From: a virus
DNA: 64,000 nucleotides
Strand: one strand, 5' to 3'
IMG/VR virus record: IMGVR_UViG_3300017987_000071
Span: 1-64,000 of that record
The position numbers were made by a program, and so were the translations under genes. Shown in pieces: positions 294 to 24,183 of the stretch (the first letter of the stretch is position 1; each line of letters starts with the position of its first letter). The notes under the pieces are model-generated. The model did no database searches and had not been told where the DNA came from. It saw only the letters and a list, made by a program, of their open reading frames with translations.

Positions 294-2303
294 CTATGCT
301 AAAGCAGCAACAGTAAGTCGCCCCTTTACTGCCAACTGGTCTTCCGCAATCGGAATATCTTCGCTTGCTGATGCTAAGCGTTGAACATATGTAGACCGTA
401 CAGTCAGGCCCACAGAGGGCACCAATGCGAGTGTAAAATCATATGACCCAGTATCGTAATCTATGGTGTTGTTGCCACTAACTGCTACATCACCCGTTAT
501 ATTGCCATTACCATCATCTATCGCAACTTGACTACCTTCAGAAAATGCCAAGGTGCTTTCCACTGCTGGCGGATAATCCAATACACCTTTAATGCGTGCA
601 GAGGACCCATCTGTTGTTGTTTCTTCTTCGCCACGCTGATAAGTAATCACATACCGATAAGTGCAAACAATGTCTGCATCCAAAGCAGGAGCAGCAGCAA
701 AAGTAACATTGTAACTCCCAGTAGTATAATCTATTGTGTTAGTCCCACTAGCATCTATATCACCAGTCAACTTCCCTGAACCGTCGTCCGTCACAGTTTG
801 CGTACCATCTGTTATAACCACAGAAAACTCAACCACAGGAGTCTTAAGCAGAGTGCCAGAAAAGGTTGCCAACACTCCTGTACCAGTACCAATACTCTCA
901 TCCTCTATTTTGTAGGATGCTGTAAGCAGATTTATTATAGCATAGTCTACACCAACCACACCATCCAACACAGCGTACACATCTGATATATGGACATCTC
1001 GCCCAGGTTGCACTAGCGAAGACGAAAACATAGCATTTAATGCTTCTAAAGCACTTGCTACCACTGTAGACGATGCATAAGAAGTTTGTGCTTTCACGGA
1101 CGCATTTATATCCACATAAACAATCTTGCCGTCTTCGACTTCAACCTTAGTGGTAATAAGGCGCACAGCATTTTCACCATCATTAGCAAAGTATTCAGAA
1201 ATAGCATCCTTTAACCCAGTAGAGGGCAACTCAATATTCCCACTCTCATCTCGCCCCCAAACAGCAATCATCACAGTATTCAGTTCCGGGATAGTTTGCT
1301 TCAAGCGAGCGCGAGCGTGTGCTGGGGCGCCATAAATGGGGCTATTAAACAAGGAAGCTAAAGTCGTAAAATCCCATTGTGTTACTGCTCTACCGTTAGT
1401 TGATACCCATCTCGGAATCCAATACTTCGCATGATCAATTGTTTCACGCGGATTGCCACCTGAACCACGATGCTCAGAGTTGTTGAATAGCACATCAACG
1501 TACTCAGTTGGTGCTGTCCCTTCTCGATAGCAAGTATTCGATACTGTAGTCTCGATGTCGTTAAGCGGTATATTGCCGATGACACCACCCCCGACTCGAT
1601 ATTCTGACTCAATAGACGCAGAAGTGGGAGGAATTGCACCACTGTTATTATCCCCAAATTTCAAGGTAGCATAATCGTCAACGTCATAAGAAACCTCATA
1701 TATCTCCGAATCCTCAGTGCCATAAACCAAGGAATCCGTTTTATCCCACTCAACACTATTCACATCAACAACTATCGACCCGTCAATCACCGAAGCCTCT
1801 GCCAAACGAAACTTTTGGAACATATCGCCAGTAGAAGTAAAAGTCTCATTGCGAGTTAACCCTTGCACCATTGTTACATCAGCAGATGTGCTACCAGCGG
1901 GTATCCGTTGCTCTTCTACAACCTCAAAGTCAACACCCTTCTTACTCTTGATTTGTGTCCCCGCAGGTATTACAATAGCTTCAGCGTATACACTATCTAT
2001 AGTAGCTTTTACTGTAACGCTGGCAGCAGTAGGAGGACTAAGTTTGTAGCCTACCAACTCACCCAAAAAGATAATCGACTGTCGATCTTGTGCCGTAGGC
2101 AAAAAGGTTTCGTTTGCTGATACATCTAGGTAGTAATTCAGCAAATCAAACGCATATGCTTGTATCTCCAAAAGCGCCATGCCAAAATGTGATTCCGTAA
2201 AATCCTTCCAAGTTGACGAGAACTTTTGTCGGATTCTAGCGATTAGCATTGCTTTTATTGTGTCAAAATCCCTACCAGTATAATCTATTGCTGGAACGGC
2301 CAT
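294..2303 (-). CDS. Baseplate J / gp6-like wedge protein with two C-terminal beta modules
   Basis: This 669-aa protein has the typical baseplate J start (IDYTGRDFDTIKAML) and the FTESHFGMALLEIQAYAFD stretch of the gpJ/T4 gp6 family, which builds the wedge ring around the tail hub. The ATG at 2303 follows AAGGAGGT. About residues 481-556 and 571-642 are two copies of an added module with the pattern DGxG...G...NTIDYxTGSY, and a third copy sits in the major capsid protein of this phage. The gene lies between gp25/W and the gpI-position gene, the usual order. The wedge assignment is firm; the role of the two modules is unknown. Confidence 0.93.
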   Translation of the reverse strand: MAVPAIDYTGRDFDTIKAMLIARIRQKFSSTWKDFTESHFGMALLEIQAYAFDLLNYYLDVSANETFLPTAQDRQSIIFLGELVGYKLSPPTAASVTVKATIDSVYAEAIVIPAGTQIKSKKGVDFEVVEEQRIPAGSTSADVTMVQGLTRNETFTSTGDMFQKFRLAEASVIDGSIVVDVNSVEWDKTDSLVYGTEDSEIYEVSYDVDDYATLKFGDNNSGAIPPTSASIESEYRVGGGVIGNIPLNDIETTVSNTCYREGTAPTEYVDVLFNNSEHRGSGGNPRETIDHAKYWIPRWVSTNGRAVTQWDFTTLASLFNSPIYGAPAHARARLKQTIPELNTVMIAVWGRDESGNIELPSTGLKDAISEYFANDGENAVRLITTKVEVEDGKIVYVDINASVKAQTSYASSTVVASALEALNAMFSSSLVQPGRDVHISDVYAVLDGVVGVDYAIINLLTASYKIEDESIGTGTGVLATFSGTLLKTPVVEFSVVITDGTQTVTDDGSGKLTGDIDASGTNTIDYTTGSYNVTFAAAPALDADIVCTYRYVITYQRGEEETTTDGSSARIKGVLDYPPAVESTLAFSEGSQVAIDDGNGNITGDVAVSGNNTIDYDTGSYDFTLALVPSVGLTVRSTYVQRLASASEDIPIAEDQLAVKGRLTVAALA

Positions 2304-2317
2304 CGTTCATTACCTCC

Positions 2318-2704
2318 TTAATACACGTTCTCAGGTGATACAGTAACCTCCACCGTCGCTATATCCCTCGCCAGCGGGTCTTCCACATTCTGAAACTTTA
2401 CCTTTACCGTTATTGTATGCTCGCCGATTTCGATATCTGCGCCCAAAAACTCCACGCGGTCATCCCACTCTTCGACCGCCTCCTGCACAGCATTCCTAAT
2501 GCTTTCTTCAGTCACAATATCATTGGGTTCAAAAACAGCATCGGGTACATCGGACCCAAAGGTAGGAAGCATAACACGCTCCCTTTTCCGAGTAAGCAAT
2601 ATCCATATGATAGAAGACCGCAGTACATCAATGTCCTCTTTAGGCTCGACCAAGGTGGCTAATGTACCATCCCAAGGCAAGGCCATACCACTGTATTGTC
2701 CCAT
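2318..2704 (-). CDS. Baseplate wedge protein, GPW/gp25 family
   Basis: This 128-aa protein has the GPW/gp25 family layout: RSSIIWILLTRKRERVMLPTFGSD near the start, then VTEESIRNAVQEAVEEWDDRV and a beta-rich end. gp25/W is a wedge component that contacts the sheath in contractile tails and injection machines. Length matches the family (about 110-140 aa). GGAG lies upstream of the ATG at 2704. It is directly upstream of the J gene in transcription order, as in P2-like baseplates. Confidence 0.93.
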   Translation of the reverse strand: MGQYSGMALPWDGTLATLVEPKEDIDVLRSSIIWILLTRKRERVMLPTFGSDVPDAVFEPNDIVTEESIRNAVQEAVEEWDDRVEFLGADIEIGEHTITVKVKFQNVEDPLARDIATVEVTVSPENVY

Positions 2705-2773
2705 TAATTCTTCTCCTTAACCACTGGCACAAACCTACTTACAACACAAGGTGGTTGTAGAACCACCGAAAAC

Positions 2774-3619
2774 CTAACCTGCTGGAGGGTGTCCACCCTT
2801 TGGCGGGTGATAAAAAGCGCCAGCAACGCCCCCACTGCCTAATATCGTTCCACTAGATACAACAACTCTCTGGCCCCCTACAATTTGTACAGTATCTGCT
2901 TGCAGAGTTATGTTGCCTGTGCCTTCCTCCGTAACCGCTTGTGCTACAATCGTCGGAGACGTAAGCACTACTTGCACATCTGAATCCACTTTAACCCTAT
3001 AGTCTTTAGAATGCACTCGTATCTGCGGAGGTTCGTTCTCCGGCGAATTACCGGATGAGTCTAACTCAATATAATTATCCTTGTCTAAATAGATATCAAT
3101 CCGCTTATCGCTCACAAACCTAATCATCATTGACTTAGCGTCCCCCGCTTTGCTTTGCCCTTGCCAAACTGTAAGTTCGGGGTACTCAGTGCCAGTTCTG
3201 TTTTTTTCCTCCTCTTCAGGATCTCTGCAAGCATCGGGCAATTCAGTCTCTTCGTTATTACTGGCAGGAGCACCATAGCATGTTCCAAGCCATACAGGGG
3301 ATTGCATATCCCCTTGCTCAAACATCACCCAGACCTGTGCACCAACTCGAGGTATGCTAACCAGTCCTTCTGGTTTTTGATCCTTTTTAGTACCCCCAAA
3401 AGGAAAGCAAGGCCATGCCCAAGGCAAATCAGCTTCTTGCACATTTTCGCCATATACCTGGGGGACTAACACACGTAGTCTACCCAAGGGGCCATACTCA
3501 TCCTCTGCTTGCCCCCCATCGTCCGTAGGCCGGTCATCATTTTGCTTTACGATACCCCGATAAACACCAGGGAACTTAGTTTGCAATTGGGGGGGTTGAA
3601 TTATGCTTTCTTCGATCAC
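2774..3619 (-). CDS. Baseplate spike/hub protein, gpV/gp5 OB-fold type
   Basis: The N-terminal half matches the gpV/gp5 OB domain: FPGVYRGIVKQNDD, GPLGRLRVLVPQVYG, then VSIPRVGAQVWVMFEQGD and SPVWLGTCY. The C-terminal part is beta-rich (RIDIYLDKDNYIELD, QIRVHSKDYRVKVDSD) and ends in a Gly/His/Pro-rich YHPPKGGHPPAG that resembles a tip or PAAR-type contact. I chose GTG at 3619 because GAGGAGG lies 8 nt upstream and the preceding gene stops at 3624; the longer in-frame start at 3682 would overlap that gene by 59 nt with no ribosome site. The spike pierces the outer membrane during contraction (family knowledge). Confidence 0.88.
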   Translation of the reverse strand: MIEESIIQPPQLQTKFPGVYRGIVKQNDDRPTDDGGQAEDEYGPLGRLRVLVPQVYGENVQEADLPWAWPCFPFGGTKKDQKPEGLVSIPRVGAQVWVMFEQGDMQSPVWLGTCYGAPASNNEETELPDACRDPEEEEKNRTGTEYPELTVWQGQSKAGDAKSMMIRFVSDKRIDIYLDKDNYIELDSSGNSPENEPPQIRVHSKDYRVKVDSDVQVVLTSPTIVAQAVTEEGTGNITLQADTVQIVGGQRVVVSSGTILGSGGVAGAFYHPPKGGHPPAG

Positions 3620-3623
3620 GCTA

Positions 3624-4754
3624 CTAACCTCCTCGCTGGCTTGTTCTACGCTCCAGATACACAATGGTCCTAAATTCACCACCGGTAATCCTTTGCTTAA
3701 CCCCGCGCACTAAATACTTCCCGGTAGTAAAATGAGGCCGCCCATCTTGGTCTGTAATATCTAAACTACTTACCGTAAAGGGCTTCAATTTTACCTGGGG
3801 GGAAACGTCAATCGTTACTCGATAAAGCGTCCGAGCATTAGCGCCCCAGATAGCCTTAGCAGTGTTTTCGACATCCTCCTCTTCATATTTCGGAAAATAC
3901 GGGGCCGTAGTTAACCACACCCTAGCAGGTTCTTGGGGCAACGAAGGACCCTTGGAGGACAACTTCTTAAAGTTAACCGTATTATCATCTGCCTTAAACG
4001 ATACTGGCTTAACCTTAATAGGGTCAAAACCCCGCACCTCAGTAGATAAACCCCCTAGAGGACCAAGTGTCACCCTGCGGTATTCCAACTCCAATAAGCG
4101 AATGTTATTCGGTTCTTCCTCTTCTGGTGCTACAGTAAGCACAAAACTAGTACCACTACCAGCAAGCGTTGGCGGTTTGAATACCAACTTATTGCCATCA
4201 GCAATAAAGAAGTAATAATTAGGATCACCACCCTGCGAAACTGCTCTAGGCAACAACACATACTTTATAAACCAAGCATCTGGCAAATTCCCTTGCATAA
4301 TATGGTATTTGCCTTTTGTGGACTCAACCTCCGCAGTTATCCCTACATTACTAGCAATATCAGATACCATATCCGAAATGCTCATATCCTTATAGGATTT
4401 AGAATCTCGAAAAGACTCATTCAATTGCTGTCCTAAATCTAATCCCTCAAGGAATATTTCTGCGTTGGTAGGAGAATAGCGAATGCGTAAGAAGGAAGCG
4501 TCTACATGACGCCAATCTGAATCGGTACGCTGACCACCGACAGCAAAACCCCATCGCACAAGAATATCAGTATCAGGATTAGTGATCACCTGATCGAAAT
4601 CTTGCCAATTAGCCTTGTCGCAATGGAGTATAAACTGTGCTGACCCATATATATGCTCGAAGTAAACAAAATCAATGATCCCATCTTCATCCACCCGTAA
4701 TGAGCGGCCTCCGACCAACAGGTCAACATGAAACGTTCCTGCATCATGAGCCAT
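3624..4754 (-). CDS. Baseplate hub protein, gpD / gp27-like
   Basis: This 376-aa protein has the organisation of late-control D/gp27 hub proteins. A first beta domain (FHVDLLVGGRSLRVDEDG, FVYFEHIYGSAQFILHCD) is followed by a part with AEIFLEGLDLGQQL and YKDMSISDMVSDIASNVGI, the subdomain where these proteins recruit the spike. The C-terminus closes with TTGKYLVRGVKQRI. It sits directly upstream of the spike gene in transcription, the conserved hub-spike order. The ATG at 4754 comes 3 nt after the LysM gene stop. Exact subfamily is uncertain. Confidence 0.85.
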   Translation of the reverse strand: MAHDAGTFHVDLLVGGRSLRVDEDGIIDFVYFEHIYGSAQFILHCDKANWQDFDQVITNPDTDILVRWGFAVGGQRTDSDWRHVDASFLRIRYSPTNAEIFLEGLDLGQQLNESFRDSKSYKDMSISDMVSDIASNVGITAEVESTKGKYHIMQGNLPDAWFIKYVLLPRAVSQGGDPNYYFFIADGNKLVFKPPTLAGSGTSFVLTVAPEEEEPNNIRLLELEYRRVTLGPLGGLSTEVRGFDPIKVKPVSFKADDNTVNFKKLSSKGPSLPQEPARVWLTTAPYFPKYEEEDVENTAKAIWGANARTLYRVTIDVSPQVKLKPFTVSSLDITDQDGRPHFTTGKYLVRGVKQRITGGEFRTIVYLERRTSQRGG

Positions 4755-4757
4755 TTG

Positions 4758-5129
4758 TTATACCTGAAGTTTTGTTTGGCGCTCTGCCAAAGCCTCCATA
4801 ATGTCTTCCCTTGTTGGGATTATCAAGGTATCACCGGGCACCAAATCAGTCAATGGATTCTTGATATTATTGGCCAAAGCAATCGCCCACCAATAGTTTA
4901 CAGTGCCATAAGCATCGTAAGAGATCAAATCAATGCGACCAACTTCTCCTGGGGAGACGACATGCCTACCATAACTCTCTAACTTTAATTCCGGTTTAAT
5001 CCAGATGCCAAACCGCCTGCGGCCAGGCACAACTAATTGATCTATCGTTACCTTGGTTAAGCCATACCGACTCTCTTCGCTAGTCGTATTTTCCAAGTAT
5101 GGCTGCTCAACCACCTGTCTAAAAAGCAT
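4758..5129 (-). CDS. LysM-domain baseplate protein (gp53-like)
   Basis: This 123-aa protein carries one LysM-like domain in its second half: VNYWWAIALANNIKNPLTD followed by LVPGDTLIIPT. T4 gp53-like and P2 gpX-like proteins use this fold in the baseplate near the hub. The first half (SRYGLTKVTIDQLVVPGRR) matches gp53-like proteins that link wedge and hub. The ATG at 5129 follows AGGGGG. It lies between two hub genes, which supports a structural role rather than cell-wall lysis. Confidence 0.8.
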   Translation of the reverse strand: MLFRQVVEQPYLENTTSEESRYGLTKVTIDQLVVPGRRRFGIWIKPELKLESYGRHVVSPGEVGRIDLISYDAYGTVNYWWAIALANNIKNPLTDLVPGDTLIIPTREDIMEALAERQTKLQV

Positions 5130-5137
5130 AATGCCCC

Positions 5138-5611
5138 CTAAAATCTAAAAGAGAACTTAGAAGCAGTCGGTCGTCGTTTAGCTGTAAACGTAGGTGTAAT
5201 CGTAAACTGCACATCAGCAACCAGTGGGTTACCTTGAGCATCCCACGGTTTTGCCCATGATACCGTCCAACCAGTCATCAATCCCTTCAAGCCAAACCAT
5301 GTACCAATACGCACACGAATCGACTTAACTTCATTTTCCCCTTCGGGGGGAAATCCCATCATCGCCATCGTTTCAATCACATTACGCAAATCGCGAGAAC
5401 TTTGGATGGGGCCTTCCTCAAGCACCCCTAACTTAAGACTAAAAGTCATGTCCGAAAACTCGCCCTTTTCCCACAAAAAGCGGGCGGGGTGAGCTTTCCG
5501 CTTCTCTGAATTAGCTCTAAAGTTATTAGTGTAAGACACATCAAAATTCTCCAGGTGCAACGGAATCTTAATGGTCTTAATTCCCTGGATAAGTATCATT
5601 GGCACAGCCAC
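5138..5611 (-). CDS. Baseplate/tail-end protein downstream of tape measure
   Basis: This 157-aa protein has alternating beta-strand character (GIKTIKIPLHLENFDVSY, FSDMTFSLKLGVLEEG, GLMTGWTVSWAKPWD, VADVQFTITPTF), typical of tail tube or distal-tail initiator proteins. The start is GTG at 5611, with AGGAGG 8 nt upstream; an upstream GTG at 5620 overlaps that ribosome site and is unlikely. It is the first gene after the tape measure and precedes the LysM and hub genes, the position of tube-initiator proteins such as T4 gp48/gp54. Function is inferred from position and fold character. Confidence 0.65.
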   Translation of the reverse strand: MAVPMILIQGIKTIKIPLHLENFDVSYTNNFRANSEKRKAHPARFLWEKGEFSDMTFSLKLGVLEEGPIQSSRDLRNVIETMAMMGFPPEGENEVKSIRVRIGTWFGLKGLMTGWTVSWAKPWDAQGNPLVADVQFTITPTFTAKRRPTASKFSFRF

Positions 5612-5623
5612 AACACGCACCTC

Positions 5624-8419
5624 CTAAATCTGGAACCTAGCAAAAACGCTGGCGTCGTGACGCAATTCCGTTTTTTGTCTACTTAGTTCAAGCAATGTAA
5701 ACCGAACATCCTTACTCAAACGTTCCACAGCACTCACTACAGGATCAGCAATAAGAGCAGTATAATCAGGTTGCTTAAAGTATGACTTTACAAACTTTGG
5801 AATCGGAATATCGGATAACGATCCTTGCACCTTCGCTTCAAATTGCCCACTGCCTTTGTCTACACCAGTAGCCAAATTCTCCATAATGCGAGCACCGGAC
5901 TTCTTTAAGCCTTTCAAAGGACCCTTCTTAGGTTCAGAATGGGGCAACATATCAGAAACAGCACTGAAAGCTCCACCGGCAATCTTTGACAGTACGCTGG
6001 TAGCCTTCTTTAAGCCAGATGCAAAATCCGTAACCGTTGTGCTGCCAGACTCAACAATCTTCTTTTTCTCATTGTCGTCGGGGACGCCAAACATTCGCTT
6101 CATCCAACCTGGCATCCAATTGGTCACGGTCTTCTTCACATCATTTAACCCTTTAGTAACGGATTCGACCCACTTAGTAGGATCAAACATCGAGGAAAGC
6201 GTATTCCCAATCTTATCACCAACCCACTTAAGTCCTTTCCATAGGTACTCAAAAGCATCAACCACCCACTCTATGCTTTTCCTCAAAACTTTAAAGTAGG
6301 CAATCAAAGGAAACAAACCAATTAGCATAAAAAACTTACTATGCTTCTTAACAAAATTGAATGCCTTGCCGATAGCTTCCAACGCCATCTTGATCGGCCA
6401 TAGCACCACATCCAACACCACCTTACCAACATCCCATATTGCTTCCAACGCTACATCCCAACCCCAGATAGCATCAACCAGAAAGTATACCGCTGCTACA
6501 ACCAACGCAATAATTCCCAATATCCACACCAACGGATTGGCAAACAATACAGCATTCAAAGCAGCAAATGCCCCAGTAAGTATACCAGTCGTAAACGCTA
6601 AAATTCCTTGAGCAGCAGCAACAGCATAAGATGCAATTGCTCCAGCGATTAATACTCCCTTATTAACCACCATTGCTACTGTATTGGCAATAAAACCCCC
6701 GGTCAACCCTGTCATGGATGCAATAGTTGCCCCCAAAGCTGTTATCCTCGCCCACAAACCTACAGTGGATGCAGTAGTAACTGTTGTATTTGCTCCTACA
6801 GCAGTTGTATTTGCAGTAACCGCAGCAGCAGCCGTACTAGCAGACGTTGCTTGTGCAGTCATTGCTGTAGTATTTGCAACGGAAGCTACTGAATTGGCAG
6901 CAGTTGCTGTAGTGTTTGCTGTCGTAGCTACTGTCTGTCCAGTTAGCATAGCTACAGCGGACTTGCCCCAACCAATATAGGATTTTAAACCGGTGACTAC
7001 CCACTTAAACATTCCAATACCAAACGCTATTGTTGCTTTAGCAGCACCAAGCAAAGCAGGAATAAGTGCTATGCCCAGGGTTACTGCTAAACCATTTGCC
7101 ACAATTTCGTTTTTGGTTAATGCTTCTATCACCTCTGCAATATACTCAAAAACGGGGGCTAAAATCTGAGCAAGAGACGTGAAAACTCTTGCTAGTTTTA
7201 ACCCCACAGGCAGGAACGCTTCTATTAAAGCAACGAACGGAGGTACGATCGCCTGCGCAAAAGCTCCAATAACCCTTGATAAAGGTGTAACCAATTTGGA
7301 CAGAGGTGTAACAATTTCTGACACCGCATCGGCTAATGGAATAAACAAGGGTTCCAATGTCCATTCTAAAAACTCTATCACAGAAGCAAAAGCCTTATAA
7401 AGCAAATTGCCCAGAGCAAATGCTCCCAACGCAGCTGCTGTAACTTTAAGCAGTCCTGCTTTGAAATCTCCTAGTGTTCCTGATACCCACTTCTTAGTGG
7501 CTTTCCCCACCATTGCTTCCGACTCGTCGATTAACTCCCCCATAGGGCGCTTCCACAACGGTATTGTACCTTCTGCTAATGCCTTCCCAACATCTTGCAC
7601 AAAAGCACTACGAGCACGATCGCTGCCCAACGTTTCATAGAAACTCTCTGCTAATTTGGGGTCCTGAAAATGCTCCGCTGCTAAAGTATTAATAAACTCT
7701 CGTTGGCCTCGTTTGCTCTTTGCTAACGCAGACCAAAACTCATAAGTCAGTGCTTCATCACCCAACGTTATCTTCAGTTGGCGAACCAATGCTTTTATAT
7801 CATCATAAGATGCAGTCCCCAAAGCTTCCATCAACTGTGGTGACTGCAACTTCTCAGACCAAAAAGTAGTCCAAAAAGCAGAACCCACTTCTTTTCCAAG
7901 AGCACGACCAACTTCATCATACTGCCCAAAATCTTCTACAGCAGGACGCTGTTCTGCTATCATCTTAGCGGCGGAAGCTAAAGAAGCAAATTCACCCCCA
8001 ACACTAACTGGCGCTAAAGGTGTTGGTGTAGCAGTTGTGGGCAACATACCCTCCATAGCCGACTTAGTTTCTAACGCTGCTGCACTCTGCTTAGTTAGCA
8101 TTTGAGTATTAGACGCAATCTCAGCATCTAAAGCAGTCAATTCAGCATTGAATGTATCAACCACGCCACTCAAATCACTAATCTGACCAAAAGCAGACCC
8201 ACCAGCAGACACCATATCCATCATGGAATCTTCCATCGTATCTGCTACTTTGCCAGCGCTCATTGCAGCATCCTCAAGAGCATTAGATGCTGAATCAAAA
8301 TTCTGCTGAGCAGCATTAAAAGCCGAAGTTGCTTCGTCTTCAAATCCTAACCTAAAAATAGAAGCCCCTGCCTCCAGCGAAGGCGAGGAGCCTGTTATTT
8401 CGGGTCCGTATTCTGGCAT
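5624..8419 (-). CDS. Tail tape measure protein
   Basis: This 931-aa protein is the longest complete product here and lies directly after the tail chaperone pair. It has a helical N-terminal third, several long hydrophobic stretches (around LLKVTAAALGAFALGNLLY and ANPLVWILGIIALVVAAVYF), and a low-complexity Ala/Thr/Asn region near the middle with repeated ANTTA units. Tape measure proteins set tail length and are ejected ahead of the DNA; the hydrophobic parts probably help form a membrane channel. The ATG at 8419 follows GAAGGGG. The start overlaps the stop of the frame-2 chaperone ORF by one base. Confidence 0.92.
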   Translation of the reverse strand: MPEYGPEITGSSPSLEAGASIFRLGFEDEATSAFNAAQQNFDSASNALEDAAMSAGKVADTMEDSMMDMVSAGGSAFGQISDLSGVVDTFNAELTALDAEIASNTQMLTKQSAAALETKSAMEGMLPTTATPTPLAPVSVGGEFASLASAAKMIAEQRPAVEDFGQYDEVGRALGKEVGSAFWTTFWSEKLQSPQLMEALGTASYDDIKALVRQLKITLGDEALTYEFWSALAKSKRGQREFINTLAAEHFQDPKLAESFYETLGSDRARSAFVQDVGKALAEGTIPLWKRPMGELIDESEAMVGKATKKWVSGTLGDFKAGLLKVTAAALGAFALGNLLYKAFASVIEFLEWTLEPLFIPLADAVSEIVTPLSKLVTPLSRVIGAFAQAIVPPFVALIEAFLPVGLKLARVFTSLAQILAPVFEYIAEVIEALTKNEIVANGLAVTLGIALIPALLGAAKATIAFGIGMFKWVVTGLKSYIGWGKSAVAMLTGQTVATTANTTATAANSVASVANTTAMTAQATSASTAAAAVTANTTAVGANTTVTTASTVGLWARITALGATIASMTGLTGGFIANTVAMVVNKGVLIAGAIASYAVAAAQGILAFTTGILTGAFAALNAVLFANPLVWILGIIALVVAAVYFLVDAIWGWDVALEAIWDVGKVVLDVVLWPIKMALEAIGKAFNFVKKHSKFFMLIGLFPLIAYFKVLRKSIEWVVDAFEYLWKGLKWVGDKIGNTLSSMFDPTKWVESVTKGLNDVKKTVTNWMPGWMKRMFGVPDDNEKKKIVESGSTTVTDFASGLKKATSVLSKIAGGAFSAVSDMLPHSEPKKGPLKGLKKSGARIMENLATGVDKGSGQFEAKVQGSLSDIPIPKFVKSYFKQPDYTALIADPVVSAVERLSKDVRFTLLELSRQKTELRHDASVFARFQI

Positions 8420-8655
8420 TATCGTCCCCTTCGTATACGCGCCGCAAAACCTCGAAAAGCACTGTTCGCAGCTTCTTGGCGTTTTGCTTCTGCTTCTCTC
8501 TCTTTCTTCACTTCATCCATTGTCTCTTCTACGTAGTACCTCCGGTCCAACGGGTAAAAATCATCAGAAGCATCAGGCGAAATCCCACCATATTTTGCTA
8601 ACAATCTCTGTTGCTCTAGCAAATTACGATAAGTCACCTTCGGACCGGCTTGCAC
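8419..8655 (-). CDS. Tail chaperone extension ORF, probably made by frameshifting
   Basis: This 78-codon frame is short, charged and helical (EETMDEVKKEREAEAKRQEA). It overlaps the end of the 264-aa tail chaperone gene by 32 nt. Its first possible initiator, GTG at 8655, has only a weak purine stretch and no clear ribosome site, unlike nearly every other gene here. The frame joins the upstream gene exactly at a TTTTTTC run. I therefore read it as the shifted C-terminal extension of the chaperone, the counterpart of lambda gpT in gpGT. Independent initiation is the alternative. Confidence 0.75.
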   Translation of the reverse strand: MQAGPKVTYRNLLEQQRLLAKYGGISPDASDDFYPLDRRYYVEETMDEVKKEREAEAKRQEAANSAFRGFAARIRRGR

Positions 8656-9418: not shown

Positions 9419-9439
9419 ATGCCCACCTCCTATTTTAGA

Positions 9440-9958: not shown

Positions 9959-9960
9959 TT

Positions 9961-11523
9961 CTAACCTCCGTACTCTTCAAAGGATGCTCCAGTAGGAAGC
10001 ACAGTAAACTCAATCTCTAGTTGCTCTGCGGCCTTAGTCGGCTTCAAAAACAACTTACCAAGCATAGTATTTTGGTCAATCAACGTAGGCGTATTCGTTG
10101 TATCATCACAGACAACCCTAAAATCGTACAACCCACGATTGTTAGCAATCTCGCGTAGATATGGGTTCACAAGGTCTGTAAACTGAATCCATGTTATTGA
10201 ATCATTTGGCTCAAAAACCAAATCAAGAGTTGCTGTTGCAATAACTTTACGAGCATAAAGCAACAAGCGCCTTACGTTAACTCGGTCTGTAGCAGTAGCT
10301 GAACGCTGTAAAGTTCGCTGCCCCCAAAGAGCAATGCCTCTTGTGCTAAAATTAACAAACGGATTCAAGGCATTACCACCTGAATACATTAGGTCTCGTT
10401 CACCTTGCCTTGGGGAGTATTCAAGGTCTAAAGCATCTACGATGCGTGCTCTCTGGAACCCCGCAGGAGCATACCACGGGAACGCCACCGAATCGGTATA
10501 AGCACAAATTCGAGCAAGTATACCAGACGGTGGAACCCACACTTTATCGTTATTATACCCATCAAAAAACTGAACCCAAGGCCATCCGGCAAACCCATAA
10601 GAGGAGTTAAGAGCAGCAGCAGGATAATCCACACCCGCCAGATCACCATTATGGAAATCAATAGCATCTTGCACAGAAGTTAGACCGAGCGGAAGGTCAG
10701 GCAGTGCCAAACAATCGCCACGAGTCTCTCCAATACTAAGCAACTCAGCAATAACACTTGCTTCATAACGCCCTGGAGCTGCCAGCAAATTAACGTCTAC
10801 AGATTCAGGATCATCGAAAATCTGAAGACCTGTACGAGTGCTACCACTTACTGTACCGACTACATCACCAATATCAGCATCTTCGCCATCATCTCCACCA
10901 GTTAAATCGGTGGTGGCTAACTGAAGTGTAGTTTCTGTAGTAGCAGTAACGTAAATATAAACAGACTTGCCTATACCAGTTGAACCTGCTCCTTGATTGA
11001 TGCGAGTTTCGATGTAATCCGCATCACTAGCATTACCGGTACCAATAACCAAATTGTCATGGACCTCAACGATAAATGATCCATCTTTAACCGTCAACTT
11101 ATATGTACCACTGCGAGTACCATTGGTAACGATTACACTTATATCGTTATAACCAGAACCTGGGTACAGCGACCTTACCACCACACTATTTTGGGTATCT
11201 GTAGCATTTCGCAGGTTGGCAGTAGCATATGCTTCATACGTCCCTACACGAACATACCACAACTGATTGCCAGCCTTCAGGTACTGGATTGCTGCCAGTA
11301 GCGCCTGATGGTTGCTGGTTTTAACATCAGCACTTATTGTTTTCAAATCTGGAGCACCAAACTTCTCAATCAACTGCCCCTCGGATGCTATAAACGTTTT
11401 CTTGTTCATAGGACCGCGGGATGCTGTCCCCACAACCCCAAATATGCTTGAGGATAACTGAGGAACGTACAGCGATAAATCTCTCTCAGTTGTGTATGCC
11501 CCTGGCGATACATGTATTGCCAT
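9961..11523 (-). CDS. Tail sheath protein
   Basis: This 520-aa sheath protein begins with the family-typical VSPGAYTTERDLSLYVPQ and FGVVGTASRGPMNKKT. It has a central variable domain (about residues 100-250) and a conserved C-terminal polymerisation domain with RGIALWGQRTLQ, TDRVNVRRLLLYARKVI and NPYLREIANNRGLYDFRVV. The C-terminal strand and the N-terminal arm link neighbouring subunits during contraction (family knowledge). AGGAGG lies 5 nt before the ATG. Length is within the usual range. Confidence 0.96.
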   Translation of the reverse strand: MAIHVSPGAYTTERDLSLYVPQLSSSIFGVVGTASRGPMNKKTFIASEGQLIEKFGAPDLKTISADVKTSNHQALLAAIQYLKAGNQLWYVRVGTYEAYATANLRNATDTQNSVVVRSLYPGSGYNDISVIVTNGTRSGTYKLTVKDGSFIVEVHDNLVIGTGNASDADYIETRINQGAGSTGIGKSVYIYVTATTETTLQLATTDLTGGDDGEDADIGDVVGTVSGSTRTGLQIFDDPESVDVNLLAAPGRYEASVIAELLSIGETRGDCLALPDLPLGLTSVQDAIDFHNGDLAGVDYPAAALNSSYGFAGWPWVQFFDGYNNDKVWVPPSGILARICAYTDSVAFPWYAPAGFQRARIVDALDLEYSPRQGERDLMYSGGNALNPFVNFSTRGIALWGQRTLQRSATATDRVNVRRLLLYARKVIATATLDLVFEPNDSITWIQFTDLVNPYLREIANNRGLYDFRVVCDDTTNTPTLIDQNTMLGKLFLKPTKAAEQLEIEFTVLPTGASFEEYGG

Positions 11524-12345
11524 CTATGCCTCCTGAATAATATCAGTTCCGTATTGCTCCACAATGTCATTAGGTTGGACGTTATCCAAGTCCGCCGTTG
11601 TCTTAACAGCACACTTATCCAACTTGACTTGCAAAACACTGCGTCTGTTTATTGCGCGTCGGGGTATCCACCCCCGAACCGTAAAATTGAACATAACCCG
11701 TAGATCCCGTTGCTGATCAGCACCCGGCTCCAAGTTATCTCCGAAATTCGTCCCTGCCCATTCAACCGACACAGACACCTCTCCCAATCTGCGGGGCAAG
11801 TCAACGGTTATAAATAACTCATCTGCGTACCAACCTGCCAATACACACTGCTCCCAAAACACCTTACGCTCATTATCCGTTCTGCACCATATCTGAAACG
11901 TATATGGTATATTGAATGGAGCAGGCCATTCATGCATCAATACATCCTTGCCATCATAAGATAACCCCTTAGATATTACTGTTCGGTTATCTCTACGCGG
12001 GTCTGGTATTGGATCACCACTCATCAACGACCCAAATGGCAATGGTACACCTTTCACTGGTACTCCCAACTGCCTTGCCATAGCAGCAAATGCTCGGTCG
12101 GGAGTAGCAAAAGTCCGTCTTAAAGTCTTATAGTCTATTGTGTTTCCGTCTGCGGAGACTTGCGTCTGCCTGAATATCTCACCCATAAGATCAGACATCG
12201 CTTTGTCGTATATATCATAAATGCTACTGCGAGAATCAGAGTCTACGGTAGTTGGAGGGGTAGCTCTTGCAATCTGGTGTATTACCACATTGGTCTTTGT
12301 CTGATATTCGTTCCCCTGTGCTGTTACTCGCTGATGATTTACCAC
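11524..12345 (-). CDS. Tail terminator/sheath-stabiliser candidate (gp15-like)
   Basis: This 273-aa protein precedes the sheath in transcription. The C-terminal part (FQIWCRTDNERKVFWEQC, then DLRVMFNFTVRGWIPRRAI) resembles T4 gp15-type sheath stabilisers, which cap the tail at the neck. I chose GTG at 12345, with AGGAGG 9 nt upstream and the TAG of the preceding gene overlapping it as TAGTG; a TTG at 12372 lies inside that ribosome site. The family call is moderate. Confidence 0.6.
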   Translation of the reverse strand: MVNHQRVTAQGNEYQTKTNVVIHQIARATPPTTVDSDSRSSIYDIYDKAMSDLMGEIFRQTQVSADGNTIDYKTLRRTFATPDRAFAAMARQLGVPVKGVPLPFGSLMSGDPIPDPRRDNRTVISKGLSYDGKDVLMHEWPAPFNIPYTFQIWCRTDNERKVFWEQCVLAGWYADELFITVDLPRRLGEVSVSVEWAGTNFGDNLEPGADQQRDLRVMFNFTVRGWIPRRAINRRSVLQVKLDKCAVKTTADLDNVQPNDIVEQYGTDIIQEA

Positions 12346-13106
12346 TAGAAGTAGCCTCCTCCGCTTTGCCAACTCTCTTGAAGCGCTTCCTTTACGCTTC
12401 TAGTTTTATTTGATTCCTTTTTGCGAGCCAATATCTTTTCCCATCTGGCTTTCTCTCTTTGAAAATACCGCAATATCTTAGGTACATACCGTCGTACCAT
12501 CTTATCCCAAACCTTGCTTCTCTCTTTATCATACCAATCGTCCAACTCCTCCACAGCACGACCTTCTTCCTCCGTCCAATCTCGAAACTCTTCTGGTTCA
12601 ATCTTCTCTCGCTTAGCTTTGTAGATTGGATCAATCCCCGACATTGCCTCCTTCATAGCAAGTTTTGCTTCATCCCACAACTTGCTTTTAGCATCCTGTA
12701 CTTTTTCGTAAGCATACTTAGGGACATTGCGCCGAAACCAATCATCTATGCTATCCATTTCCTTCTGCATTTTTTCTGCTTCGGGGCTACTTGCTTCTTT
12801 CTTCTCAAGCAACTCAGCATCCAGCGACTCATCTTTACGCTTTCCCAACCCTTTCAGCATTTGTCTTCGCTTTGCTACCTTCTTCTTTAACTCCTCGCGT
12901 CTCTTTTGCAAACGCTCAACTTCGCTAGTATTCCCGGCTTTCTTTGCTTGGCGAATTGCAGCAGTCAACTTTGCTTGCTCTTTTCCATAAGCACTCATTG
13001 CTGTTTGCTCTTCCGCCAGCATTCGCTTTTCTCTTGCTTCAATTAATTCTGTTTGCAACCCACCAAAAAAATTTGCTATATCTGTGCCTGCTGACTCATT
13101 ACGCAT
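12345..13106 (-). CDS. Charged coiled-coil protein, structural module, unknown
   Basis: This 253-aa protein is very rich in Lys, Glu and Arg and predicted to be almost wholly helical (EVERLQKRREELKKKVAKRR). A C-terminal stretch with DDWYDKE, YVPKILRYF and EKARWEKILARKK repeats in the next gene downstream (RRWYKGE, WLPTVLKLY, EKRRWEQILAKRK), so the two are related in part. The ATG at 13106 follows AGGAGG. It sits in the neck/connector gene block. No known family was recognised. Confidence 0.6.
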   Translation of the reverse strand: MRNESAGTDIANFFGGLQTELIEAREKRMLAEEQTAMSAYGKEQAKLTAAIRQAKKAGNTSEVERLQKRREELKKKVAKRRQMLKGLGKRKDESLDAELLEKKEASSPEAEKMQKEMDSIDDWFRRNVPKYAYEKVQDAKSKLWDEAKLAMKEAMSGIDPIYKAKREKIEPEEFRDWTEEEGRAVEELDDWYDKERSKVWDKMVRRYVPKILRYFQREKARWEKILARKKESNKTRSVKEALQESWQSGGGYF

Positions 13107-13116
13107 AACACACCTC

Positions 13117-14082
13117 CTACGCTGCTTTAGACATCAATTCCTGAAGCGTAACAACATGCCTACGCAACTGCTTCAAAGCATCCAGCACACGATCTAAACC
13201 CACAGGATACCGTCCCTTGAAAGCATCCCCCAAAAATTCATCAGCAGCGGCCTTTGCTTTCTCTTGCCATTTTCGATAATCTCTAATATCCTGATCTAAC
13301 GCCCGACGCAAATCGGTAATGTCACCACGATATCGCCTAAGCAATCTTGCAAGCGTTGGCATATCCACAGCACCAGATTCCAGTTTGCCACCTAGCACCT
13401 TGAATACTTCTGATAACTGATCTTGATACTCTTCCACTGGAGGCAACGCAGCACGCATAGCTGCCTCCGCTGCCATCCACTTTTGTCCTCGTCCCAACTT
13501 ATGGCGTAACCAACCCCAGAGGGCAACAAAAGCAGTGCCTCCTGCGGCAGCGTATTGCCAATAGTTTCTAACAAGATTCAACGCAACGTCGAACCAGTTC
13601 TCATCCAAGCGTGACTCTTTTACAATTAACCTAGCAGCCCCCTCTGGAGATATTGCTTCGTACATCACCAGATCAACATATAAGCTCCTATGCATCATGC
13701 TCTCCTCGTTTTGCCGTTTTGATTTTCTCTTTGCCAATATTTGCTCCCAGCGTCTTTTCTCAGAGCGATAAAGTTTCAGAACCGTTGGCAACCATTTTAC
13801 ATACACTTCTTCAGTAATTCTATCCTTCTCACCCTTATACCAACGACGCAAGGCATCATATTCGTTAGGCTTTGCTTCTGATTGGCCTAACTTCCTGCGT
13901 TTCTTCTCATACTCTACTTTCGCTTTTGCGAATCTCTTTTTCTTATCAAGCGACATCCACTCCCTAATTGCATTTCGCTTTGTAACAACTCGCTGCCAAG
14001 GGCCATCCCAAGTCTGAAACCAATCAGCAATACGATTCAACTCCTTGTTAATGGTTTCCACTTTTCCTTCTACTAAGTTCAT
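13117..14082 (-). CDS. Unknown helical protein with internal tag-like motif
   Basis: This 321-aa protein has a basic coiled N-terminal third that shares the EKRRWEQILAKRK module with its neighbour. It is followed by a segment starting HRSLYVDLVMYEAISPEGA and continuing ARLIVKES that resembles the recurrent terminal tag of this phage. A hydrophobic patch (YAAAGGTAFVALWGWL) comes next, then a long helical C-terminus. The tag-like part begins after MM (about residue 129), so this could be a coiled-coil domain joined to a tagged protein. The ATG at 14082 follows AAGGAG. Function unknown. Confidence 0.6.
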   Translation of the reverse strand: MNLVEGKVETINKELNRIADWFQTWDGPWQRVVTKRNAIREWMSLDKKKRFAKAKVEYEKKRRKLGQSEAKPNEYDALRRWYKGEKDRITEEVYVKWLPTVLKLYRSEKRRWEQILAKRKSKRQNEESMMHRSLYVDLVMYEAISPEGAARLIVKESRLDENWFDVALNLVRNYWQYAAAGGTAFVALWGWLRHKLGRGQKWMAAEAAMRAALPPVEEYQDQLSEVFKVLGGKLESGAVDMPTLARLLRRYRGDITDLRRALDQDIRDYRKWQEKAKAAADEFLGDAFKGRYPVGLDRVLDALKQLRRHVVTLQELMSKAA

Positions 14083-14615
14083 TTCAACTCCTTAGTAATC
14101 TCCTTCACGCCGCGATCTATAGCAAGAAGGTCCCTTAACACCTCAATGCGAATCCGCTCAGCGTGCTGTGGCATACGTACTTTAAATCGCTCCCAGACGG
14201 GACGCCAGTGTGGTCGAGCAGGCATCTTGCGTGTACCATACTCCAACCACAACATCAATTGAGCAAATGCGACCTTCGCTCTCGAATGGGGTTTATTGGG
14301 AAACCCTACCGAAACCTCGAAAGTCCCCCCTCTGCTTCTAGGGGTTGGTGTCTCAATTACGCTTATGTTATCTACGTATTCCTGCGTCATAACAAGAATA
14401 CGCAAATCGTAACCCTCCCGACGCTTTCGCTCAAGCCAAGCGTCAGACAAGGGAGGTTTTATATTGATCTGATACAGAATTGTATCCTGTACCGACTCAG
14501 CAAGCAAAGTAGCAACTTTTCGCAAATAACGAGTGCTACCCTCGAACACCGCTTTGCGAATGCCTTGCACGAAAGGCTTTGCCTTCTTATACCGCTTCGT
14601 CACCCTCGATGGCAT
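14079..14615 (-). CDS. Head-tail connector / HK97 gp10-like tail completion protein
   Basis: This 178-aa protein has the HK97 gp10-like signature: a basic helical start, then LMLWLEYGTRKMPARPHWRP, where an E-Y-G-T stretch precedes a proline/tryptophan motif. Such proteins close the gap between head and tail. It overlaps the next gene by ATGA and lies in the neck block between capsid and sheath genes. Length agrees with the family. Confidence 0.7.
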   Translation of the reverse strand: MPSRVTKRYKKAKPFVQGIRKAVFEGSTRYLRKVATLLAESVQDTILYQINIKPPLSDAWLERKRREGYDLRILVMTQEYVDNISVIETPTPRSRGGTFEVSVGFPNKPHSRAKVAFAQLMLWLEYGTRKMPARPHWRPVWERFKVRMPQHAERIRIEVLRDLLAIDRGVKEITKELK

Positions 14616-14663
14616 AATCTAAGTTCCAAACAATCTACACACACTTTTAAAGAAAAAAGGAGA

Positions 14664-14888
14664 TCATGATTCAACCATTGCTGGATTAGCATTGAAATTC
14701 GTAAAGAAGATACCAACGTTGTTCGGCAGCCCCTTGCCTTCTGCTAAATCCGCGAATAAATTCGCTAAAGCCCCATACAACTCATTCTCCGTTTTGTATG
14801 CACCGTATCCATCCATACGGAATCGAAAAATGGTTCCGTCCACTGTACCTCCAGCGTCCTTCAATCCCTGCACTATTAAATTAGTCAT
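14664..14888 (-). CDS. Small unknown protein of the neck block
   Basis: This 74-aa product (IVQGLKDAGGTVDGTIFRF, then GIFFTNFNANP) has no motif I recognise. Its start forms a TAATG junction with the stop of the preceding gene, so it is probably translationally coupled. The neighbours are two neck-type genes, which suggests a small structural or assembly role. Confidence 0.55.
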   Translation of the reverse strand: MTNLIVQGLKDAGGTVDGTIFRFRMDGYGAYKTENELYGALANLFADLAEGKGLPNNVGIFFTNFNANPAMVES

Positions 14889-15442
14889 TATTCACACGTT
14901 ACAGGCGATGGCAACCCCTGCGATAAATCACGCAAGATTTGCCCGGTTATTGCTATATAAACTGGCAAATTTGAGACGCCGTGATACTTCTCACGATGAA
15001 AATCCCGCACCTCAAATTCCTTATCGTCAAAAACAAATTTGTCTCCTGGCTTTACCAAGATCACCGGTGATGAGACTGGGCTACGCGGGTTGCTTAAAGT
15101 CGCCAACCCAACATCAACCAGCTTAACCACTGATGGAATTAAAACAATGTCCCGCTTCTCATCTATACCATAGCGATTCAAGTCCTTCTCAGTCGGATTA
15201 AGGTTAACAAACGTATGCAAATCAACTGGCTCGCTCCACGTCTTTAGATGCTCTTCTATTTCCTGATGTACAGCATCCAATGCATCTTGCACAGTCGACA
15301 AACTATAATACGGAATTATCGGCAAATGCTGCTCTGACCATTCCTTGATATACTCCATATCACGAGCATAATCAATACTCAAGTTAGGCCACTGATAGCC
15401 CCACCGTTTATTCTTTACTGGCGTATTATAATTGCGCGACAT
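14888..15442 (-). CDS. Putative neck protein
   Basis: This 184-aa protein ends with the pattern RYGIDEKRDIVLIPSVV, GDKFVFDDKEFEVRDFHR and NLPVYIAITGQ. This is the style of phage neck proteins (T4 gp14-like), in which a bounded beta domain checks head completion. AAGGT lies upstream of the ATG at 15442. The family call is by pattern and position between capsid and sheath genes, not certain. Confidence 0.5.
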   Translation of the reverse strand: MSRNYNTPVKNKRWGYQWPNLSIDYARDMEYIKEWSEQHLPIIPYYSLSTVQDALDAVHQEIEEHLKTWSEPVDLHTFVNLNPTEKDLNRYGIDEKRDIVLIPSVVKLVDVGLATLSNPRSPVSSPVILVKPGDKFVFDDKEFEVRDFHREKYHGVSNLPVYIAITGQILRDLSQGLPSPVTCE

Positions 15443-15451
15443 CTTTTTACC

Positions 15452-15931
15452 TTAACGCAAGGGACCCATTTTCAAATCTCTTACAAACTCGTTATAATTC
15501 TCAACCAACTGTCGCAAGCGCCCCACTTCATCCCTCTTAGACTCAACAACACTTTGATACACAAGTTCTGCTTGTTCCAACTTATCACGGTGCATTTGCA
15601 CCAATTCCTCTAAGAGGCCTTTAATATCAGGTTGCGAAATCTTATGAGCACTCTGCTGATAAAACCTATTTATTCCATTAAAAGAACGCTTTGTGGCTTC
15701 AACTAACCCACGAGCCAACCCAAGCATACCATCCCAATCACTACCTGCTTTCCATTGCTTCACAACACTAGCAACTGCTTTCAATCCAGCAGCATCCGCA
15801 GGAGGCAACTGAAATCCCTCATCAAGCCTCTCAGCTACCTTTGGCAAATTACCATGTAGCAAACCGCTAACATGTGCATTTGCTGGTTCACCACACATTA
15901 TTTTGCTTATAATTGCTCTTGTATCTTCCAC
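15452..15931 (-). CDS. Helical protein with N-terminal tag-like motif
   Basis: This 159-aa protein begins MEDTRAIISKIMCGEPANAH, then VSGLL, a weaker match to the recurrent tag (hydrophobic helix, small residue-G-x-P, hydrophobic pair). The rest is helical (HRDKLEQAELVYQSVVESKR). I chose GTG at 15931, with GGGGG upstream, just after the stop of the preceding gene; an upstream GTG at 15943 overlaps that gene. No family recognised; possibly a scaffold-associated or internal head protein. Confidence 0.55.
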   Translation of the reverse strand: MEDTRAIISKIMCGEPANAHVSGLLHGNLPKVAERLDEGFQLPPADAAGLKAVASVVKQWKAGSDWDGMLGLARGLVEATKRSFNGINRFYQQSAHKISQPDIKGLLEELVQMHRDKLEQAELVYQSVVESKRDEVGRLRQLVENYNEFVRDLKMGPLR

Positions 15932-15933
15932 TA

Positions 15934-16650
15934 CTACCCCCACACAGGTGGCATTGGTTCCTGTATGTTTGCTAAATCCTCTCGAACTCTCTCCATTATA
16001 CGCTCCCCAATCTCACGCTGAGTTGCTCCATCCAATTGGATGTCGCCTGTGGGACCAGGAAGCACATTACCATGCTTACCCCGGATATCGCCCAACGATA
16101 CCCGAATTATTGCTTCTACACAATCCATAAACAACTGCTCATAGGAAACCGGCACAGCCGATACTGTTTCTAACGGATATGCTACTTCGTAACCAATATT
16201 TACGGGGTCGCTAGGAGCATAAATAAACAAACGATAATTAGCAGCATCATACTCCCAATCTGGCTCAGTGCCAAAAACCCTCTCGCGGTTCTGATGGTCT
16301 ATCTTGCGTAGCAAATGATAAACATATCGCCCTTGCCTATAGTAAGGGCGATATTCAAATACATTGAAGTCAGTATACGTAGCAGCACGCTCTTCACGCA
16401 GAAACTTAACCGATAAAACGCCTAACGGGGCAGGGTCGCCAGAAGCATCCCCCTCCGTTACATCAATAAACCCCTTATCCAACACATTCTCAGCAGACTT
16501 TAACTTACGTCCTAAGATGTGTCGTTTAAAGGTGCGAAGAGCACGGTTTATCGCTGCCTGAAAACCTTCAGGTTCTATCTCTAAATCTCTGCGTCCACGA
16601 CCTAACAGCTCGCGGATTTCATGCTCTATTGTTTCAGCCGTCAGCGCCAT
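15934..16650 (-). CDS. Neck protein candidate (gp13-like)
   Basis: This 238-aa protein ends with SLGDIRGKHGNVLPGPTGDI and QLDGATQREIGERIMERV, a pattern typical of gp13-like neck or adaptor proteins of large myophages. The middle (PDWEYDAANYRLFIYAPSD) is beta-rich. It lies two genes after the major capsid gene, in the expected position. AGGA occurs close upstream of the ATG at 16650. Moderate confidence. Confidence 0.6.
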   Translation of the reverse strand: MALTAETIEHEIRELLGRGRRDLEIEPEGFQAAINRALRTFKRHILGRKLKSAENVLDKGFIDVTEGDASGDPAPLGVLSVKFLREERAATYTDFNVFEYRPYYRQGRYVYHLLRKIDHQNRERVFGTEPDWEYDAANYRLFIYAPSDPVNIGYEVAYPLETVSAVPVSYEQLFMDCVEAIIRVSLGDIRGKHGNVLPGPTGDIQLDGATQREIGERIMERVREDLANIQEPMPPVWG

Positions 16651-17107
16651 CTTCCTCGTCCTGCTTATGATATTGATTGAAGTGCCGGATTGCTACATTA
16701 GCATCCTCAGTACTCCAATCACAGTGCTTACAAAAGTACGTTTCGCCGATTTGTACCCAACGATCATCACCAATAACCGCTTGGGTTTCCATCTCGCAAG
16801 CTACCATGCAAGAGGATGCACATGCGGATGCTGATATGCTACCCCGGCGTCCTCGATTACGCTGCCGTTTTCGAGGAGACCACGGTACAAATTCGGTATG
16901 ATTAGCGGCAGTAACCTTTACGCCGCGCTTCCGGCGCGAGGCTAACTCGGAATCCGTTAACGGCTCCCTGGTTAACTGCGTCGGATTGAGAAAGCGACTC
17001 CACCAAATGTTGTCGTCCCATTCCCCTGGTGTAAAAAGCCGACTACCGCCCCGCGAATCCGTAAGGTACAAGGGGTACTTATGTCGGTTTACATACTTAT
17101 ACCGCAT
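16634..17107 (-). CDS. C2H2-type zinc-finger protein next to capsid gene
   Basis: This 157-aa protein has a basic middle (RKRQRNRGRRG) and a C-terminal C2H2-like finger, YFCKHCDWSTEDANVAIRHF followed by NQYH. The ATG at 17107 has GGAGGT upstream; an in-frame TTG at 17134 has none. The N-terminal part (YVNRHKYPLYLTDSRGGSRL) is beta-like. It is encoded directly after the major capsid gene, so a head or DNA-binding role is possible, but this is inference. Confidence 0.6.
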   Translation of the reverse strand: MRYKYVNRHKYPLYLTDSRGGSRLFTPGEWDDNIWWSRFLNPTQLTREPLTDSELASRRKRGVKVTAANHTEFVPWSPRKRQRNRGRRGSISASACASSCMVACEMETQAVIGDDRWVQIGETYFCKHCDWSTEDANVAIRHFNQYHKQDEEDGADG

Positions 17108-17147
17108 AACGCCCACCTCCGTTTTCTTAACCAACTAATATTAGGGG

Positions 17148-18563
17148 TTAGGGTGAGCTTTCGGTTATAGTACCTGTCACATAGTAGTCACTGTTGACAA
17201 CTTTCTGTGCTGTTCTGGTAGCCATACCACGACGAGTCACAAAGTCATCCAGCGTTACGGGTTCTGTGGTATAAAGTCCAATATACGGAGCATGAACATA
17301 ACCGGTATCCAAAATGCCAGTACCCTTATGCCCCATCAGGAACTCATTAGTAGGAAAGTCAGGGTCCTTATAGAACACAGTACCATCAGACAACTGCCCG
17401 GCTTTGTATATACCTAAAGAGCCTTTTGGAGCAGGAAATGCTTTATATCCTGGCATATATTCTACTATGTTTGCACAACCGGTACCACCAATCATCCAAG
17501 GGGTCACAGTTCTCTTAGTAGCATCAAAAATGAGGTTCTTGGCTTCAATGATCTTCAGCAAGAAAGTCTTGTAATGATCATCAAGAGAGATGCCTTCTGG
17601 CTTGGTTTTATCAAACGCAACTGAACCAGCACTCGCGACAGCACGCAAATGCTGAACAATCTTGAAATTGATTTCTTTGCTGATCATGTTCGCCATGAAA
17701 GCAGTTATCTCAACATCAGTTTGAACACCATGATAAGCCTTCATGTCTTGAGCGCCTTCTAAACTCCAACGTGCTCTTAGTTTGTTGGGGCGAGCAACAA
17801 CGGGGCAAGAAGTAAAACTCAGATCAACTTGTGGCACTTGGCTGGAACCTTCTAAATCAAACTGGTAAGTACCAGTAATAGCAGTACCAGAGCCAACAAC
17901 ACTAGAAAAGGTAACAGAATATGCACCGGTATGGTAGTTAACCGTACCACTACCACCACCCTGCAAACCACCTTTACCGTCATCGGTAACTACCTGTGTA
18001 CCATCGGTAATCTCAACGGTTCCGGCTCTAAGGCCTGAAGGACCATAAGCTAAAGTACCAGTATAAGCACCAGCACCACCATTCCCGTTCTGCAAAAACT
18101 CATTCTCCACCAGCTCGTCACTGTAGTGATAACCAGAAGACGGTCCTCGCTTAGCAGAATACATCTTTTCGCCCTTCTTTACATCACCCTTATCGGACCC
18201 ATAAAGAACGTCGAAATAGAAAATCATCCCACTAGGGGAATCCAAGGGTTGTACAGACACGAGATCAGCAGCAACCAAATTGTTCACAATGGCACGTATA
18301 AGTGGAAATACATACTTCTCGAAACTACCTACATGTGTAGTTCGAGTTGTCTCGTCCATATTAGCATACCACTTGCGCTGGTTCTCCATCAAAATAGCAC
18401 AAATGTGACGCTTCCACTCATCCTCAATTCCCTCAAGGAAGTTTACTCTCTTAAAGTTCTCGTACCCGCGGACTGCTCTACCAGGCATATTTGACCATGC
18501 TTCTTGTAGCATTTGCCCTTTCTGGTACATTGCTTCCATTAACTGTTGGGGGTCTTTTCGCAT
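17148..18563 (-). CDS. Major capsid protein, T4 gp23-like, with inserted beta module
   Basis: This 471-aa protein has gp23-type features: a helical N-terminus with the possible prohead protease sites LQE-A (after about residue 21) and FLE-G (after about 44), then VFPLIRAIVNNLVAADLVSV and a C-terminal half with LRARWSLEGAQDMKAYHG and GHKGTGILDTGYVHAPYIG. About residues 167-238 form an added module (DGTQVVTDDGKG, GTVNYHTGAYSVTF) also present twice in the baseplate J protein; it may be exposed on the capsid surface. The ATG at 18563 has AGGAG 10 nt upstream. The protease gene precedes it. Confidence 0.93.
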   Translation of the reverse strand: MRKDPQQLMEAMYQKGQMLQEAWSNMPGRAVRGYENFKRVNFLEGIEDEWKRHICAILMENQRKWYANMDETTRTTHVGSFEKYVFPLIRAIVNNLVAADLVSVQPLDSPSGMIFYFDVLYGSDKGDVKKGEKMYSAKRGPSSGYHYSDELVENEFLQNGNGGAGAYTGTLAYGPSGLRAGTVEITDGTQVVTDDGKGGLQGGGSGTVNYHTGAYSVTFSSVVGSGTAITGTYQFDLEGSSQVPQVDLSFTSCPVVARPNKLRARWSLEGAQDMKAYHGVQTDVEITAFMANMISKEINFKIVQHLRAVASAGSVAFDKTKPEGISLDDHYKTFLLKIIEAKNLIFDATKRTVTPWMIGGTGCANIVEYMPGYKAFPAPKGSLGIYKAGQLSDGTVFYKDPDFPTNEFLMGHKGTGILDTGYVHAPYIGLYTTEPVTLDDFVTRRGMATRTAQKVVNSDYYVTGTITESSP

Positions 18564-22385: not shown

Positions 22386-22694
22386 CTAATAACCTAATGT
22401 CAATGCCACCTCGCATATCTTCTGTGGCAAAAATATCCAATAAATATCCTCTTTTAGCGTACACAACCAGCAAACGGGTATCTTCTTAGAGCGATCTGGC
22501 GTTATAAACACCCTCTCATTAGTGTCATATAGCCAATGGAGGTTTTGGTTTATGTAATCCAGCATCTGGGTATGCCACCCCTCAGCAGGCTCATCGCCAG
22601 CAATAACATCCCCCAAACAAACGTGTATTGGACGAGTCATCGGCGCAAAAGGACCCGAAGCTAAAATGCTATAATCTCGCCACAGTACTACCAT
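22386..22694 (-). CDS. Small unknown protein
   Basis: This 102-aa product (ILASGPFAPMTRPIHVCLGD, then HWLYDTNERVFITPD) overlaps the preceding glycosyltransferase by 7 nt. The ATG at 22694 has GAGGA very close upstream. Nothing links it to a known family; coupling suggests co-expression with the transferase. Confidence 0.5.
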   Translation of the reverse strand: MVVLWRDYSILASGPFAPMTRPIHVCLGDVIAGDEPAEGWHTQMLDYINQNLHWLYDTNERVFITPDRSKKIPVCWLCTLKEDIYWIFLPQKICEVALTLGY

Positions 22695-24177: not shown

Positions 24178-24183
24178 GTCCCA

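Follow-up and report, generated by a model that had tools for sequence, protein, structure and literature searches.

The major capsid proteins of phages P1 and T4 contain an insertion (I) domain. In P1, this domain is rich in β-sheet and protrudes outward, neighbouring I-domains interact with each other, and each also touches the P-domain of the next capsomer (PMC12810830). The T4 I domain lies within the E loop and rests on the adjacent subunit (PMC9958956). In the T4 baseplate, the C-terminal part of gp6 forms the inter-wedge dimer of the ring (PMC3004832). Beta domains scattered over virion proteins are already known, and they include the Ig-like domains (PMC9022992) and the additional domains of tail sheath proteins, which are often Ig-like β-sandwiches (PMC9230969). 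The phage considered here is represented by an 83.7-kb IMG/VR record; the window, i.e., the whole stretch of DNA under analysis, comprises 64,000 nt of it, and 19.7 kb lie outside. Its major capsid protein (MCP) contains one copy of a β module of ~72 residues, and its baseplate J protein contains two, J1 and J2 (Table 1).

Table 1. Genes and module copies in the 64,000-nt window.
Feature	Size or residues	Window position	Strand	Basis
MCP gene, gp23 family	474 aa	17148-18572	-	Pfam Gp23 5e-50; phrog_138 major head protein 3e-53; Foldseek best matches P1 and T4 capsid proteins
Baseplate J / gp6-like wedge protein gene	669 aa	294-2303	-	Pfam Baseplate_J 2e-12; phrog_219 baseplate wedge 9e-34; Foldseek best match T4-type gp6
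MCP module copy, I-domain slot	MCP aa 168-238	17859-18071	-	HMM 7e-24; slot alignment with T4 gp23 and P1 gp23; predicted strands
J1 module copy	J aa 479-551	651-869	-	HMM 2e-30; predicted strands
J2 module copy	J aa 569-641	381-599	-	HMM 3e-24; predicted strands
Family 2 glycosyltransferase gene		22688-23521	-	Pfam
Methyltransferase gene		23518-24177	-	Pfam

One module in two virion proteins

The three copies are one homologous module. In a BLASTP comparison of the MCP with J, the two modules of J give the sole significant matches (40% identity, E 2e-13, and 31% identity, E 2e-8), and the copies are 34-44% identical to each other, with the MCP copy and J1 reaching 44%. Smith-Waterman scores of 131, 108 and 165 correspond to z values of 18, 15.5 and 24 relative to shuffles of the same composition (2000 shuffles, means near 29, standard deviation about 5.5, best shuffle 63). 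The original prediction, that a common pattern recurs in the capsid protein and twice in J and that these are structurally unrelated virion proteins, is therefore upheld: aligned, the copies are homologous over ~72 residues, and their carriers belong to Gp23 and Baseplate_J. Further copies, which it proposed to seek in tail fibres outside the window, were not encountered, as a profile search of the 83.7-kb record, including the remaining 19.7 kb, detected no fourth one.

AlphaFold2 models built from 26 MCP and 15 J sequences have a mean pLDDT of 85 and 83, respectively, with values of about 90 and 94 in the modules. All three modules share the strand string EEEEE, a single-residue bridge, EEE, EEEE, EEEE, a short strand or bridge, EEEEEE and EEEEEEEE, and they differ only by small loop differences; the predicted strand order, equal in all copies, gives no sign of the different folds that would have counted against a common module. 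The placement of the J modules relative to the J core is uncertain because the pTM of the J model is only 0.54. A search of BFVD structures with this model returned solely J-like proteins as best matches and did not single out the module. For the MCP model, Foldseek placed the P1 capsid protein first (9ukm, E 9e-25) and T4 gp23 next, and also matched the HK97 capsid protein; together with the Pfam assignment this identifies the carrier as a gp23-type capsid protein with the HK97 fold.

The capsid copy and the I-domain of P1

In alignments, the MCP module occupies the slot of the I-domain in both T4 gp23 and P1 gp23, and the MCP-family profile aligns to P1 gp23 continuously across the module. 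A profile built on 57 modules, drawn from the full range of carriers, matched just one sequence when compared with the whole PDB, namely P1 gp23, at residues 227-293 (E 2e-4), which is a modest score. To avoid circularity, a second profile was restricted to 42 modules from carriers other than gp23-type capsid proteins. This non-capsid profile matches P1 gp23 at the same place (E 8e-6 in a search space of 1000 sequences), and it matches the capsid proteins of SP-15 (a phage of Bacillus subtilis), LIS04, phiXF1, QdP_Psa3, GXN1 and Colly_1 more strongly than P1 gp23, while reversed-sequence decoys gave nothing better than E 1.4. Homology to a region of solved I-domain structure was thus found for P1 gp23, and this, together with the shared slot, the Foldseek ranking and the published descriptions, makes a P1-type I-domain the very probable identity of the capsid module. 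P1 gp23 itself belongs to phrog_1014 (E 1.6e-252), which explains the matches of both the MCP and the module to that family.

The MCP copy and the P1 I-domain (PDB 9ukm, 9vl4; phrog_1014) share the slot, detectable homology and richness in β-structure. However, the matched stretch of P1 has a longer loop ahead of the NY-x-x-G motif. The two phages also differ in the baseplate: the J-like protein of P1, BplA, has only 477 aa, whereas J of this phage contains two homologues of the capsid module. The I domain of T4 gp23 and gp24 resembles the MCP copy in its slot, its size (about 60 residues) and its location at the surface of the capsid, above the adjacent subunit, but shows no detectable sequence similarity to it. 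Neither T4 gp23 nor T4 gp24 nor Syn19 gp23 was matched by the module profiles, including the non-capsid one, so either the slot is differently filled in these proteins or the domain has diverged beyond detection.

A family spread over virion proteins

Clustering of the carriers with the module masked gives more than 20 groups that are unrelated to one another. These comprise gp23-type MCPs, J proteins, tail sheath proteins, virion structural proteins (phrog_3287), a Tail_P2_I protein, proteins partly similar to internal virion proteins (phrog_511) and others; phrog_6128 proteins have up to five copies. Scans of viral contigs and of bacterial genomes, the latter with a smaller module alignment, found the module on numerous phage contigs from the environment and in a few bacterial assemblies, part of which may represent prophages. 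Two Acidobacteria bins contain homologous carriers (L139:2131-3405 and L140), and the former begins with an N-terminal methylation motif as in pilins, which suggests that the module may also occur outside phages.

No family in Pfam or NCBIfam covers the module. Like the Ig-like domains of phage virions (Big, I-set, FN3), it is a small β domain that recurs across unrelated phages in proteins of the capsid, the tail and the baseplate (PMC9022992). Unlike them, it has no convincing match to the Ig-like Pfam families: a scan of the 57 copies gave scattered single weak matches, with one of the 57 reaching 4e-4 for one family, and membership was rejected on these scores. Membership in the phage tail protein family DUF2460 was likewise rejected (best score 21.4 bits and J 14.1 bits, against a curated cut-off of 30.4). 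In the scan of the 57 copies, no carbohydrate-binding family matched. A tblastn search of phages with a typed consensus module found nothing, for which low-complexity filtering is possibly responsible. The additional β domains of tail sheaths are a further parallel, as large sheath proteins can contain inserted members of the module family. The sheath carriers of other phages have one to three copies, whereas the sheath protein encoded here (window 9961-11523, minus strand) has none.

The capsid copy itself is a known kind of domain. What appears to be new, as far as our searches and the open-access literature show, is that one uncatalogued family connects, at the level of sequence, the P1-type capsid I-domain with J, the sheath and further virion proteins.

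Age and probable role of the copies

When relatives were searched for again with the module-free parts of the MCP and of J, all full-length relatives recovered had the module at the same site, in one copy in the MCP and two in J; a distant J-like protein (L051) has more than two. Five MCP frames that seemed module-free were rejected as such: two (L099, L112) are truncated at contig ends, and three (L098, L110, L111) are pieces of interrupted genes, the other piece of which contains the module. In a tree of 56 modules, the copies group by carrier site and not by genome. The J2 copies form one clade (support 98/92) and 22 MCP copies another (98/94), and the three site labels need 4 changes compared with 23.8 when shuffled, although the deeper order is not resolved by only 73 columns. 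Four genomes that encode both proteins were compared, and in these the MCP copy resembles the J copies of its own genome no more than those of the others. Third codon positions are 31-41% identical between module copies and are saturated.

Several of the relatives have interrupted genes. The capsid gene is split in L098, L110 and L111, where Rfam detects group I introns, and also in L083 and L085; in SP-15 its annotation comprises two exons and an internal endonuclease gene. In alignments, three J genes (L007:2571-5618, L012:2532-5666 and L016:2991-5642) have an insert of 200-350 residues near the conserved ANE motif; it begins with Cys and, in two of the three, ends with His-Asn before Cys, as in inteins. 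On a separate 38.7-kb contig, IMGVR_UViG_3300029267_004484, the C-terminal part of the MCP is 100% identical to that in the window and the module score is equal, indicating the same or a very close virus.

The original prediction held that the module had moved within the genome. Recent movement of this kind is not borne out: the fixed sites, the site-wise tree, the equal distance to foreign J copies and the divergence at third codon positions together indicate that each copy is old and was inherited at its site. That the module was recently copied from one of these two genes to the other might be suspected from the location of J and MCP in one genome and from the 44% identity of the MCP copy and J1, but the same four observations speak against it and leave it a negligible probability. 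Convergence of short turn-rich β motifs is scarcely more credible. Chance likeness is made easier by the shortness of the motif and its many glycine, aspartate and threonine residues, but the likeness extends over ~72 residues with equal strands in equal order, the scores far exceed those of shuffles of equal composition (z 15-24), and the lone PDB-wide match falls at the homologous capsid site. The presence of the module in unrelated proteins means that an ancient transfer between genes must have occurred, not necessarily in this lineage. We regard the module as a structural spare part of long standing, not as the product of a recent jump.

Taken together, the explanation that we consider probable is that the module is a small all-β domain serving as an interchangeable building block in the virion proteins of tailed phages. 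In the MCP it would be a P1-type I-domain, projecting outward from the shell and helping to keep neighbouring subunits together; by analogy with P1 and T4, both the surface position and this clamp role are rather likely for the capsid copy. In J, a gp6-like wedge protein, the two tandem copies would prolong the C-terminus, carried on β-strand linkers. There they would most likely reinforce or dock wedge contacts, a plausible role given the position of the T4 gp6 C-terminal part, but one that we put forward tentatively.

The surface role expected by the original prediction is retained in part. Judged by its homologue in P1, the capsid copy is part of a domain that points outward; host binding and decoration found no direct support, and the I-domain is described as holding subunits together. 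The modules might instead be ornaments of the virion surface, acquired by capsid and baseplate to aid adsorption through the binding of host or environmental glycans. This would agree with the outward orientation of the homologous P1 I-domain and with the presence of the module in several exposed virion proteins such as the sheath. Reviews have also proposed adhesion for Ig-like (PMC9022992) and sheath domains (PMC9230969). However, among MCPs found through their C-terminal part, the mean pairwise identity of the module is 44%, against 42% for the C-terminal core. A module as conserved as the capsid core, and not hypervariable, is more in keeping with a structural role than with a diversifying surface for receptor binding; the slot has a described structural role in P1 and T4, and the carbohydrate-binding families gave no match. 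Adsorption is therefore an unlikely purpose, and for the capsid copy a structural clamp, favoured by the homology with the P1 and T4 I-domains, fits better than host binding.

Glycans might alternatively be attached to the modules by the products of neighbouring genes. The family 2 glycosyltransferase and methyltransferase genes are located on the strand of the MCP gene, 4-6 kb upstream of it, and the genes that follow resemble a radical-SAM protein and more glycosyltransferases by inspection, but such a neighbourhood is circumstantial, and we regard attachment as very unlikely. A possible glycan-modification gene group spans window 22688-25814 and 29759-30688 (minus strand); beyond the methyltransferase, inspection of the sequence suggests radical-SAM-like, second glycosyltransferase-like and heptosyltransferase-like proteins. 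It is also conceivable, though quite unlikely, that all copies, i.e., the capsid I-domain and the wedge, sheath and other extensions, share one ligand or one mode of self-association and so functionally couple the surfaces of head and tail. If this were true, the P1/T4-type capsid I-domain of a large phage branch and the baseplate and sheath extensions would be one β-domain family coupling head and tail.

Given that Pfam and NCBIfam lack the family, many carriers are left unannotated or are matched to each other through the module alone, as in phrog_6128. The module offers a testable case of tailed phages reusing one small domain across different parts of the particle.
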